Shown one piece after another: positions 29,160 through 52,862 of a stretch of 64,000 bases of DNA (its first letter is position 1; the number at the start of each line of letters is the position of its first letter). A model generated the notes under the pieces. It saw nothing but the letters and a program-made list of their open reading frames with translations, did no database searches and was not told the DNA's origin. Origin of the DNA: Anaerovibrio lipolyticus LB2005 (GTDB lineage Bacteria > Bacillota > Negativicutes > Selenomonadales > Selenomonadaceae); contig NZ_JHYA01000012.1 in assembly GCF_000621545.1 (NCBI RefSeq), forward strand, positions 1-64,000, written 5' to 3'. The translations under genes and the position numbers were made by a program.

Positions 29160-30011
29160 TTACCCTAAATCCACCATGATGCGCTTGCGCTTGTCGAAGG
29201 TTACCCCCTGGGTATAGCCATAGCGTTTTACGTAGTCAATGGCCTCGTCAATGTAGCTGCCGCAGTCCTCCGGCTTGTGGGCATCAGAGCTGGTTATTAT
29301 TGGCAAATCAGCCTTGGCGGCCAGCTTCATAAACTTGTAGTACGGAGTTATTTCCGCAATTGGATAACGGTACACTGTACCCGTATTTACATCCACGCAC
29401 ATATTGGCCTTCTTTAATGCCGCCACTGCCCTTTCCAGATATGGAGTGGCATCAAAGTAAGGAATCATGCGGTAAAGACGGATATTATATGGATGTCCCA
29501 GCACATCATAAAGGCCGCTGGTCACCATGTGCTCAATTTCCTGGGTATAGGCCTCGTAAATATCATCCAAAGTGTGATGGTTCCATTCCGCCATAATTTC
29601 CTCAGAATCATAGGCCCAGCCACGGATAAAGTGAATAGAGCCGATAATGTAATCAAAATTGTACTCCTTTAAAATCTCTGCAACCTGCTCCTGATTCCGG
29701 AAATTGCACACCTCAATTCCGGTCTTGGCATTATAGCCGGCAGACTTTAGCTTTTCCATAAATTCAAAATAGTCATCCAGAGTATGCTTGAACTTATTTG
29801 ACTTCAGCCACTGCTGCTGAAATTTCCCCACAAAGGAATCATCCAAAATCAAATCATCATAATAAAGCTGCTTAAACTCCGGAAAGGTATGGCTATGCTC
29901 GGAGATACCGATTTCATCCAAGCCCCTTTTGGCTGCTGCCTCAAAAAAGCCCTTGGCCCAGTCAACATCATAATCGCCTTTTTCAAAATGCATATGATAG
30001 TCAAATTTCAT
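29160..30011 (-). CDS. PHP-family histidinol-phosphatase-like enzyme
   Basis: 283 aa PHP-domain metal phosphoesterase. Ligand motifs are visible: YHMHFEKGD, ISEHSH, GIEVCN, GSIHF, VLGHPYN and SSDAHK. It is close to HisK/HisJ-type histidinol-phosphate phosphatases, which release histidinol. No other his genes are nearby, so another phosphomonoester substrate is possible. It lies 55 bp after the HAD phosphatase gene on the same strand. Confidence 0.85.
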   Translation of the reverse strand: MKFDYHMHFEKGDYDVDWAKGFFEAAAKRGLDEIGISEHSHTFPEFKQLYYDDLILDDSFVGKFQQQWLKSNKFKHTLDDYFEFMEKLKSAGYNAKTGIEVCNFRNQEQVAEILKEYNFDYIIGSIHFIRGWAYDSEEIMAEWNHHTLDDIYEAYTQEIEHMVTSGLYDVLGHPYNIRLYRMIPYFDATPYLERAVAALKKANMCVDVNTGTVYRYPIAEITPYYKFMKLAAKADLPIITSSDAHKPEDCGSYIDEAIDYVKRYGYTQGVTFDKRKRIMVDLG

Positions 30012-30066
30012 ACACGTTTCTCCTCTACCCCTAAAATACCCAAATATCTATTTATCTAAAACTCTC

Positions 30067-30864
30067 TTAAATCAAACCTTGCTTAATAAATTCCTTTATC
30101 TGATATATAACGCCATGTTCTGCATTACTCTTGGTGGTAAACCTTGCCACTTTTTTCAGCTCAGGATAAGCATTTTCCATGGCGTAGCTGTAATACACCG
30201 ACTGCATCATTTCATAATCGTTCATGTAGTCGCCAAAGGCGGCGCATTCCTTAGGTTTGAAGCCGAATCTTTCCTGAATGTGTTTTATGGCCCAGCCCTT
30301 GTTGATACCTGGATTGAGTATATCCACCCAGTAGTTGCTGCTAAGTGACACCTGCTGCTCCGGCTCAAACTGTGTTAATACCGGCATAAGATTGTGCTCT
30401 GCATCAAGTCCCTCACAATCTGCAAAGGCAATCTTAACAAATTCATCATCCACATCATCAAAGCTATCCACAAAAATACTGTGGGTAAAGAAACGGCGGG
30501 CCTCATGGATATATGGCTCCCATTCCTTTCTGGCATAGGCATTTTTCTTGCCGCAAAGAATGGCAAAGAAATGATGCTTATCCGCTTCGGCGATTACACG
30601 ATGCACCAAATCCATATCAAGGACTGAGGAACAGATCTCCTTTTCCTTGTATATATTAAATGCCCCATTTTCCGCCAGAAACATAAACTCGTTTTTGTAT
30701 TCCCCCATCTGCTCCAAAAGGGCAAAATATTGGCGGCCACTGGAAGGTGCAAATATAACCCCCCGCTTCTTCAGCTCTGCCATAACCTCCGGAAATTCCA
30801 CGGGCAGCTCCCCGTTTTCATCCAACAGGGTACCATCCATGTCCGAAAAAATAATCTTTATCAT
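30067..30864 (-). CDS. Cof-type HAD phosphatase
   Basis: 265 aa. HAD motif I FSDMDGTLLDENG at the start, motif II APSSGR, and motif IV GDYMNDYEMM (usually GDxxND), with the C2-type cap of the Cof/YbiV class that dephosphorylates sugar phosphates or cofactor phosphates. The exact substrate is unknown. The start at 30864 follows AGGTG; an upstream frame (to 30897) lacks a ribosome-binding site. Confidence 0.9.
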   Translation of the reverse strand: MIKIIFSDMDGTLLDENGELPVEFPEVMAELKKRGVIFAPSSGRQYFALLEQMGEYKNEFMFLAENGAFNIYKEKEICSSVLDMDLVHRVIAEADKHHFFAILCGKKNAYARKEWEPYIHEARRFFTHSIFVDSFDDVDDEFVKIAFADCEGLDAEHNLMPVLTQFEPEQQVSLSSNYWVDILNPGINKGWAIKHIQERFGFKPKECAAFGDYMNDYEMMQSVYYSYAMENAYPELKKVARFTTKSNAEHGVIYQIKEFIKQGLI

Positions 30865-30941
30865 AAAATCACCTAGCTCAGATACTGTTTTTGTCAATAT
30901 TAAACTATATTATATCGCAGTTAGTTGATTTTTCCAATAAT

Positions 30942-31160
30942 AAAAAAGGGCGAGGGCTACTTTCTGTAACGTCGGTCATGAGCCTAAAATTTTTTGTTCG
31001 ATTATATAGTGGAAAAAATCATAACTCGCTTCGCCATTACAGTATTAGCCTTGCTTCGCTCAAACAAATGATTTTTCCCACTAAAACTAAGGTACGAACA
31101 AAAGAATTTCTTAACGACTCATGCCCTAATTGTTACAGCCAGCAGCCCCCGCCCTTTTTA
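30942..31160. repeat. Giant-hairpin repeat element, copy A
   Basis: A ~215-bp imperfect palindrome filling the gap between nirJ2 and the HAD gene. Its outer stem is AAAAAGGGCGAGGGCT against AGCCCCCGCCCTTTTT, and inner stems include TGTTCG/CGAACA and AAAAATCAT/ATGATTTTT. The apical loop AACTCGCTTCG...CTTCGCTCAAACA carries a ~20-bp insertion compared with copies B (48954-49137) and C (52676-52862). Confidence 0.85.
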
Positions 31161-31175
31161 ATAAAATATGATAAC

Positions 31176-32168
31176 TTACCCTTTACGTCCATGATACAGA
31201 CACCATGGCTCCTCTGCCATATAGTCACCTTCATGGTAATATGCTGCCCTTGCCCGGCAACCACCGCAGGCTCTCTTGAACTCGCATTCACCGCAGCCCC
31301 CCTTATATTCAAGGGTACGCAAGGTATTCAGCACCTCATTATTCTTCCAAATCTCATCAAATGGAGTCTCCCGTACATCCCCCAGCTCCATGTTAAGGTA
31401 TGCACATGGCTGTACCTTACCCCGTGGGCTGATAATACAATATGCCGTACCTGCCAGACATCCCCGACGGAAGCGGGTCTTTATTCCCATCTGAGCGGCA
31501 ATGCGCATAAACTGCGGAGCACAGGTAGGCTTCAATTCAATATCCACCTCAGTTTGCTTTTTCATAATACGGGTAAGGGTTTCCTCATACTGCTCTGCCC
31601 GCAGGGACTCAGCCTCAATTGTCTTGGCCCGGCCCGTTGGCACAAGGAAGAAGAAATGGTGGGCCACAGCCCCCTCTGCCACAGCGAAATCCGTAATTGC
31701 CTCCAGCTCATGGTTATTCCAGTCCATTACAGTGGTATGAATCTGGAATGGCAGTCCCACAGCGCGGCAGTTTCTCATACCCTGAACGGCACCTTCCCAG
31801 GCCCCTTCAAACTTACGGAACTCATTGTGCTTCTTCTTATCCATGGAATCAAGGGAAATTCCCATGCCCATAGCACCTGCATCCTTTAGCTTCTGAGCCA
31901 TTTCCAGAGTAATCAGAGTACCATTGGTACCAAATACACTGCGAAGTCCGAGAGAGGTAGCATAAGAAACCAGCTCTAAAATATCTGGGCGGATAAGAGG
32001 CTCACCGCCGGAAAATATCATTATCTTAAAGCCTGCTCTGGCAATCTGCTCCAGCAAGGTCTTGGCCTCCTCAGTGGAAAGCTCCTCCTCCGCCTTGCAG
32101 CCCGCCTCGCGGTAGCAGTGGTCACAAAACATATTGCAGGCATTTGTTACGTTCCAGGAAACTATCAT
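31176..32168 (-). CDS. nirJ2: NirJ2/AhbD-type radical SAM-SPASM protein
   Basis: 330 aa. Radical SAM cluster motif CNMFCDHC near residue 11-18, GGEP motif in FSGGEPLIRP, and C-terminal auxiliary-cluster cysteines (CLAGTAYC, CGECEFKRACGGC). It matches the NirJ2 type, related to AhbD, which oxidatively decarboxylates Fe-coproporphyrin III to heme in the siroheme-dependent pathway. It overlaps the nirJ1 stop by one base. No ahbA/B or hem genes are present in the window, so the tetrapyrrole product is uncertain. Confidence 0.85.
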   Translation of the reverse strand: MIVSWNVTNACNMFCDHCYREAGCKAEEELSTEEAKTLLEQIARAGFKIMIFSGGEPLIRPDILELVSYATSLGLRSVFGTNGTLITLEMAQKLKDAGAMGMGISLDSMDKKKHNEFRKFEGAWEGAVQGMRNCRAVGLPFQIHTTVMDWNNHELEAITDFAVAEGAVAHHFFFLVPTGRAKTIEAESLRAEQYEETLTRIMKKQTEVDIELKPTCAPQFMRIAAQMGIKTRFRRGCLAGTAYCIISPRGKVQPCAYLNMELGDVRETPFDEIWKNNEVLNTLRTLEYKGGCGECEFKRACGGCRARAAYYHEGDYMAEEPWCLYHGRKG

Positions 32169-48815: not shown

Positions 48816-48953
48816 CTTCCTCTGCCCCTTGAAATATCAACAACACTTGAAATTATAGCAAATATTCCTCCATTGTGAAACAATTCTGTTAAATTTATGA
48901 AAATAATTTCATACTAATGTTTTCATAATTTCTATTTATACTTTTATACAAAT

Positions 48954-49137
48954 GGGCAGGGCTGTTTTCTGTCGCGACGGTCATGGGCCTAAAACTTTTT
49001 GTCCTAATTAAATAGTGAAAAAAATCATAACTCGCTTCGCTCAAACAGATGATTTTTGTCACTAAAATAGATGTGCGGACAAAAGCGTTTCTTAACGACT
49101 CATGACCTAATTGCTCCAGTAAGCACCCCTGTCCTTA
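48954..49137. repeat. Giant-hairpin repeat element, copy B
   Basis: A ~185-bp imperfect palindrome with an uninterrupted 19-nt loop AACTCGCTTCGCTCAAACA (49029-49047) flanked by AAAAATCAT/ATGATTTTT. It aligns with copy A but differs by compensatory changes: TGTCC/GGACA where A has TGTTC/GAACA, and AGTGA/TCACT where A has AGTGG/CCACT. Confidence 0.87.
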
Positions 49138-49348
49138 TGTGCAATAACTGTGGGTGGCATGGAATAAGGACATGAAGCATGCGAAGCTCAAAATGACACC
49201 TCTGTAATAAACTCATCGAAGCCACTGTGATGTGGCGGACGGTTACGAAGTCCGTCCATACCATCTTTAAGCCGATAAATAAATTGATGTGGCACTAGCG
49301 AAGCAAATGAATGGCCTATTCCATGACAGGACCCACATTGTAACAAAT

Positions 49349-49377
49349 AAAAAAAGGACCACGGATAACGCAGTCCT
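49349..49377 (-). terminator. Terminator of wecB
   Basis: Stem AGGAC/GTCCT with a 13-nt interior, followed on the minus strand by a seven-T run, 14 bp after the wecB stop. Confidence 0.65.
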
Positions 49378-51637: not shown

Positions 51638-51737
51638 AAAAAGTCACCTGCTTTCTTTAGAACATACCAATTTTACTCCACGAAATACGCTCTGTCAACA
51701 AGATTAAAAGCAGGTATAAAGGAAAAAATAGATGGGC

Positions 51738-52653: not shown

Positions 52654-52675
52654 AACAATTACTCCTAATGAAATA

Positions 52676-52862
52676 AAGGTAGAAGCTGTTGTCTTTCGCT
52701 CAGTTTCATCGCTAAAGCTATTTTTTGCATAATAATTAGCAGCAAGAAAAATCCGAACTCGCTTCGCTCAAACAACGGATGTTTTCTCGCTGTGTAAGTA
52801 AGCAAAAAATCGCTTTTTAACGCTCTGAAACTTAATGCTCAAGACAATCAGCCTCTACCTTA
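52676..52862. repeat. Giant-hairpin repeat element, copy C
   Basis: A ~187-bp palindrome filling the gap between the DUF3084 gene and the yqgF-like gene. It has the same 19-nt loop (52756-52774) flanked by ATCCG/CGGAT. The outer stem is AAGGTAGAAGCTG against CAGCCTCTACCTT, and an inner stem is GCTATTTTTTGC against GCAAAAAATCGC. The stem sequence is unrelated to copies A and B. Confidence 0.87.

Follow-up and report, generated by a model that had tools for sequence, protein, structure and literature searches.

In this work, we analysed a 64,000-nucleotide stretch of Anaerovibrio lipolyticus LB2005 DNA (contig NZ_JHYA01000012.1; hereafter the window), which holds three giant imperfect palindromes, copies A, B and C, and, at site X, the scar left by a fourth (Table 1). 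By open reading frame (ORF) reading each of the three lies within an intergenic gap, between a stop and the next start, as an earlier note on this DNA had described, and copy A is flanked by A-rich and T-rich edges. The window opens with the end of a 16S rRNA gene followed by six tRNA genes in a row (1–1201). Next to copy B lies a dispersed repeat distinct from the hairpins and about 185 bp long (49140–49350); two further copies of it, with 84% and 80% identity, were located elsewhere in the genome, and the stretch is missing along with copy B in two genomes of the genus, G014 and G013.

Table 1. Features of the hairpin family in the window (A1 and R1, alignment and model of the family, see text; L numbers, individual loci; G numbers, genomes)
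Feature	Positions	Strand	Basis
Copy A, giant hairpin	30940–31155	minus (tip strand)	R1 match 152.1 bits; fold z −8.5
Copy A, enlarged tip of 44 nt with two mini-hairpins	31023–31066	minus	sequence and fold; similar large tip in L016
Copy A, CGTTAAG tag	31110–31116	minus (CTTAACG on plus)	sequence; tag column of alignment A1
Copy A, TAG partner of the tag	30984–30986	reads CTA on plus	sequence; tag column of alignment A1
Copy B, giant hairpin	48945–49136	minus	R1 match 154.1 bits; fold z −4.5
Copy B, tip TGTTTGAGCGAAGCGAGTT	49029–49047	minus	exact match
Copy B, CGTTAAG tag	49091–49097	minus (CTTAACG on plus)	sequence
Copy C, giant hairpin, stem sequence differs	52669–52861	minus	R1 match 165.1 bits; fold z −9.1
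Copy C, tip TGTTTGAGCGAAGCGAGTT	52756–52774	minus	exact match
Copy C, variant tag CGTTAAA	52816–52822	minus	sequence; A1 row L012
Site X, scar of a fourth copy	51727–51737	.	half outer arm AATAGATGGGC left; full copy in G008

Folded as RNA, the minus strands of copies A, B and C reach −94.8, −63.4 and −81.5 kcal/mol, respectively, and 0, 1 and 0 of 200 shuffled sequences fold as well, which bears out the three palindromes proposed in the earlier note at these places. The compensatory stem changes that it had pointed to between A and B are present in the sequence. Its further claim, one fixed loop in all three, holds for two of them: B and C carry the 19-nt loop AACTCGCTTCGCTCAAACA unaltered, while the 44-nt tip of A differs from it by 3 mismatches at the best match.

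The family is much larger than the three members first recognised and occupies about 42 places in the genome (G000). A loop search with up to 1 mismatch provided 22 places, 20 of which were used for alignment A1 and model R1 (L016 and L019, with enlarged tips, were left out). R1 gave 81 matches over both strands of G000, which correspond to 42 places when the better strand is kept; outside these about 42 places, R1 picked up a single fragment of 100 bp and two short matches of low score. The 42 copies span 137–218 nt and, judged by mismatch count, 30 have the simple tip. Most of the readable non-simple tips have an extra mini-hairpin grown inside, which gives a hairpin-in-hairpin look in L081:12163–12368, L083:11851–12056, L082:2505–2710, L089:2700–2904 and others.

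The tip TGTTTGAGCGNAGCGAGTT reads, from its letters, as a putative GC-GNA-GC mini-hairpin with tandem G.A mismatches on its flanks; in DNA, hairpins closed by such a GNA loop have unusual stability. The GCGAAGC tip had been rightly noticed before, and in the 61 simple tips found among 81 copies (42 from G000 and 39 from its relatives) the middle N of GCGNAGC is the most variable base (A 48, T 8, G 4, C 1), the following A being A in 51 and C in 10. Beneath the conserved tip, the folded strand has an internal loop in which CGTTAAG lies opposite TAG. According to the A1 columns, this tag is located internally, not at the element end, and reads CGTTAAG in 9 of 20 copies, CGTT being kept in 12, CGT in 17 and CGTC in 1.

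Constraint in the family is on structure rather than sequence, as the earlier note had argued from three copies, and the 20-copy covariation lies far above both shuffled and slid controls. In A1, both partners have changed in 44 of 71 pairs, and covariation scores 0.429 vs 0.190 in shuffled alignments, none of 500 being as high. Paired cells amount to 84.7% of 1403, compared with 70.9% after shuffling and 42–51% with slid partners, over which A1 has the advantage that its structure was derived from the same 20 sequences. Between orthologous copies compensation is visible, not dominant: 16 copy pairs gave 24 compensated and 13 uncompensated double changes, together with 29 pair-keeping and 48 pair-breaking single ones.

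The better fold is on the tip strand in 79 of the 81 copies from G000 and its relatives (74 of 76 distinct ones), with an average advantage of 14 kcal/mol; the exceptions are L065 and copy B, which folds 1.5 kcal/mol better on the strand opposite the tip strand. When columns with modal G-U are excluded, G-U cells outnumber A-C cells 80 to 44, and by helix the two counts are 16 and 2 (helix 2), 28 and 8 (helix 3), 20 and 6 (helix 4).

Neighbour genes of the 42 copies are tandem in 28 cases, convergent in 13 and divergent in 1, compared with 73, 24 and 19 for control ORF gaps at the same loci (p 0.027 for the divergent class by Fisher's test; genes were called crudely, as longest ORFs, and the control gaps include those holding copies). 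By the same crude calls, a copy edge is located no more than 30 nt from a stop codon in 27 of 42. Runs of four or more T at the right edge occur in 23 of 42, of four or more A at the left edge in 18, and both in 11. There is no leading/lagging bias by GC skew in G000, the tip strand being on the G-rich strand in 21 of 42 copies. Eight of the 42 are in close pairs, and 26 such pairs, judged by eye among the matches listed, comprise 19 head-to-head, 5 head-to-tail and 2 tail-to-tail arrangements.

Within the genus, R1 matches were found in 9 of 16 genomes, including G000, and in 7 there were none. Copy numbers are 42 in G000, 36 in G002, 43 in G006, 39 in G008, 41 in G013, 12 in G014, and 6, 4 and 2 in three others. 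The copy-rich genomes are 94–100% identical to G000 in a WecA-like protein; G014 is 97% identical and yet has few copies.

Orthologous sites differ both in content and in orientation. At site C, G014 has the outer stem only, while at site X a half arm is left in G000, an outer-stem remnant in G014 and the full copy in G008; outer-stem remnants are also present at the L090 site in G013 and the L089 site in G014. Genome G013 has no copy B, its site-C copy is reversed, and at site X the orientation in G008 and G013 is opposite to that in G002 and G006. One site shows a flip most cleanly: there the copies of G000 and G002 align in the same direction with 191 of 198 columns alike, whereas the G008 copy agrees in 185 of 202 as reverse complement and in 124 of 206 directly, with G008 flanks about 97% identical. 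The single orientation relative to neighbour genes described earlier thus holds within the window and not across the family, in which orthologous sites occur in both orientations and half of the G000 copies have the tip strand on the G-rich strand.

A crude script applied to 51 site comparisons returned 32 full-size spans, of which 15 were in the same orientation, 7 inverted, 2 both and 8 unscored (at least three of the latter have the same orientation: two in G011 by model matches, and B in G006 by alignment); the remaining 19 were short spans without the tip. The 7 inverted calls include copy A vs G014, rated by the script alone. Two others of the seven, copy A vs G013 and L098 vs G006, were rejected as flips, as alignment revealed that the site is occupied by another member of the family.

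Precise insertion with target duplication was not seen at the sites compared, where the spacers with and without the element are unlike also outside the hairpin itself. Insertion into terminator loops was rejected, the compared spacers showing no pre-existing short terminator of the same stem; the short hairpins that were found look like deletion remnants. Some orthologous copies are 100% identical although their flanks are several percent apart (L083:17881–18072, L042:1501–1692 and window 52669–52861), with no sharp edge, which indicates that recent recombination also shapes the copies.

Beyond the genus, R1 matches were obtained in 22 of 60 genomes including G000, several of those in other families being partial and weak. 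A further model, R2, was applied to 300 genomes of the class and matched in 46. A pattern scan of genome contigs (GCGTTAAGAA, gap, tip) gave at least 120 stretches, and a core of CGTTAAG, tip and TAG common to at least five phyla: among the matches listed there are many Bacteroidota, with the cultured Bacteroides luti DSM 26991 as one carrier, and Bacillota (Clostridium, Anaerococcus, Peptoniphilus), while Campylobacterota, Pseudomonadota and Thermotogota are represented by metagenome-assembled genomes or single records. For 30 cross-phylum copies, chosen with the core fixed by the pattern and the stems free, 79.2% of stem cells are paired vs 49.3% in shuffled sets and the covariation score is 0.739 vs 0.198, as high in 0 of 500 shuffles; the count of double-change pairs (20) does not discriminate, being matched in 425 of 500. 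The better fold is on the tip strand in 114 of 117 cross-phylum copies, which is partly due to the fixed core. In 103 copies the inner helix is Watson-Crick in 594 of 618 pairs, with 3 G-U and 5 A-C, and the next helix has 86 G-U vs 33 A-C.

An array was found in Bacteroides luti, with 23 matches in stretches of one contig that total about 50 kb (G063:C22; L344–L346). Here the hairpins lie in mixed orientations, and several bracket genes, among them four for AAA/DUF4143 ATPases and a pair of AbiEii type, in a locus that appears capsule-like from its ORFs; their layers are nested (CGTTAAG...CGTTAAG...tip...TAG...TAG). A second small hairpin, GTACTTTT...AAAAGTAC, follows the large one at the outer ends of head-to-head units in other families (L383, L384, L344) and was not seen around the G000 copies inspected. 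Elsewhere, genes beside or between hairpins encode Clp protease, HxlR, DJ-1, CorA, MatE and other ordinary proteins; one DDE transposase lies in L380, and no recurrent enzyme was found among these flanking genes. Plasmids gave no match to the hairpin, phages no DNA similar to the one viral-contig element used as query, and no WecA was found in viral contigs.

A RAYT- or HUH-type partner, suggested in the earlier note, did not emerge. PF01797 (Y1/RAYT) is absent from G000, a draft of 31 contigs, and in a survey of 28 genomes, 14 of them picked for carrying the core, it does not follow the repeat, as it is missing in 9 of 23 R2-positive and present in 4 of 5 R2-negative genomes. The DUF4143/AAA_14 ATPase was considered as partner because of the four such genes between hairpins in B. 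luti, and was rejected: 9 of 41 genomes bear hairpins without a DUF4143 match (G040, G045, G049, G060, G062, G065, G067, G068, G072), several genomes free of hairpin matches have it (e.g. G001, G005, G007, G015), and the G000 matches are not near its hairpin copies.

We consider A, B and C to be copies of a dispersed, non-autonomous palindromic repeat that is REP-like, several times longer and nested, and recognised as a folded single strand, and we give this reading a probability of about 0.58; the mobile element that the earlier note had listed among its candidates is thereby supported as a candidate. The folded strand would be recognised and moved by a trans-acting enzyme not encoded in the element, with selection for recognition holding the tip, the loops and the pairing, while stem letters would drift and be compensated. 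The outer inverted repeat would allow host recombination or template switching to flip or delete the inner part, so that flips and inner deletions may be by-products of palindrome recombination or replication. Single-stranded DNA at replication forks may be a likelier form for recognition than RNA, given the orientation freedom, the patchiness and a core helix in which wobble pairs are scarce, whereas the bias towards wobble in the other helices speaks for RNA. A wider reading, of which we are doubtful, would unite the hairpins of at least five phyla in one superfamily: a folded single-stranded DNA unit with a GNA mini-hairpin cap and nested CGTTAAG...TAG layers, served by a mover other than Y1/HUH, bracketing genes as head-to-head pairs and flipping in place.

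The strong covariation, the excess of G-U over A-C and the 79 of 81 strand preference are also what a structured RNA family would give, i.e. a 3'-UTR or stand-alone transcript that binds a protein, was spread by recombination and is kept for its RNA. This we regard as unlikely, since the orientation of copies towards their genes is reversed in place, the tip strand is on the G-rich strand in 21 of 42, presence is patchy within one genus, and the cross-phylum inner helix has little wobble (3 G-U vs 5 A-C in 103 copies). It is also at odds with Rfam, in which no family was matched: none of the copies reached a gathering score in the window scan, and one copy searched at E up to 10 stayed far below threshold, mostly against microRNA models, its top score being 24.1 bits where 249 is the gathering score. 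A lack of both further copies and significant covariation, or a match to a described repeat or Rfam family, was what the earlier note had named as counting against its proposal; by that rule the proposal stands, as the analysis found further copies, strong covariation and, in the copies, no match at an Rfam gathering score.

If the hairpins were elaborate terminators at gene ends, intrinsic or acting in both directions, this would explain why 27 of 42 copies come to within 30 nt of a stop codon, as well as the A-rich and T-rich edges of copy A and the edge runs (T on the right in 23 of 42, A on the left in 18, both in 11). Many edges, however, have no T-run, a conserved tip and inner loops are not needed for termination, copies flip and vanish between close relatives, and a simple terminator scan of 30000–32000, which seeks short loops only, missed copy A, so that this explanation appears improbable to us. 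We see equally little chance that the palindromes are passive, their arm complementarity arising from template-switch repair between the arms and not from selection. In-place inversion and outer-stem remnants are known replication-slippage products at palindromes and fit such an origin, as does the near-perfect, wobble-free inner helix of the cross-phylum set; if one arm served to repair the other, however, the conserved asymmetric loops and the bias of G-U over A-C should be erased, and both persist, and the cross-phylum conservation of the tip and of CGTTAAG/TAG suggests recognition.

The literature searched (subscription papers and supplements being outside its scope) does not contain the tip sequence, and the matches listed for its shorter fragments look unrelated by title and abstract start; the accessible text of a study on intrastrand-triplex repeats (PMC4666352) and that of a stem-loop survey (PMC2267715) do not describe the tip. 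REP-like palindromes are widespread in bacteria, and for the CGTC-tagged kind a dedicated transposase is not known, according to the accessible part of Di Nocera et al. 2013 (PMC3733652). The present family has many members in several phyla, covaries strongly and has flipped recently between close relatives, so that the strand that is read, the recogniser and the route of flipping are directly testable.

CGTC-tagged REPs, as described in the same accessible part (PMC3733652), are of 20–40 bp, with stems of 8–9 bp, loops of 4–5 and an unpaired CGTC (or TGTC, CCTC) tag at one end, and are found in phyla including Bacteroidetes, Thermotogae and Proteobacteria. Both they and the hairpins presented here occur in these phyla and are palindromes located behind genes, placed in tandem or convergent gaps (41 of 42 here, by crude ORF calls), and for neither is a dedicated transposase known. 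Head-to-head dimers, which predominate among those REPs, make up 19 of 26 close pairs among the matches listed here, with 8 of 42 G000 copies paired. A stem start of two A/T pairs is common to both (A-U in 30 of 30 and 27 of 30 of the cross-phylum cores, where the AA side is preset by the search pattern and the TT side is free), and of the 20 A1 copies, 17 have a tag with CGT, as in those REPs. Unlike them, our hairpins have 137–218 nt, stacked helices, a conserved 19-nt tip and an internal tag, mostly CGTTAAG (9 of 20) and CGTC in only 1 of 20.

REPINs and GTAG REPs with RAYT, as far as the accessible text of two papers goes (PMC3116915, PMC8266576), resemble the family in being non-autonomous inverted doublets with a single-stranded DNA hairpin, and in recognition of the folded single strand with tag and bulge; they differ from it in that A1 has no conserved GTAG foot columns and G000 no PF01797 match. 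MITEs, of about 100–400 bp in the available part of the former paper (PMC3116915), are similar in size, dispersal and lack of autonomy, while here no target duplication was seen at the sites compared, whose spacers differ, and no parent transposase was found in G000, the defining feature being the covarying fold. On the basis of these partly accessible sources, the closest kind is the CGTC-tagged REP, with REPINs second; the family is not filed as a CGTC-tagged REP because its size and the place of its tag lie outside the definition given for that kind (PMC3733652).
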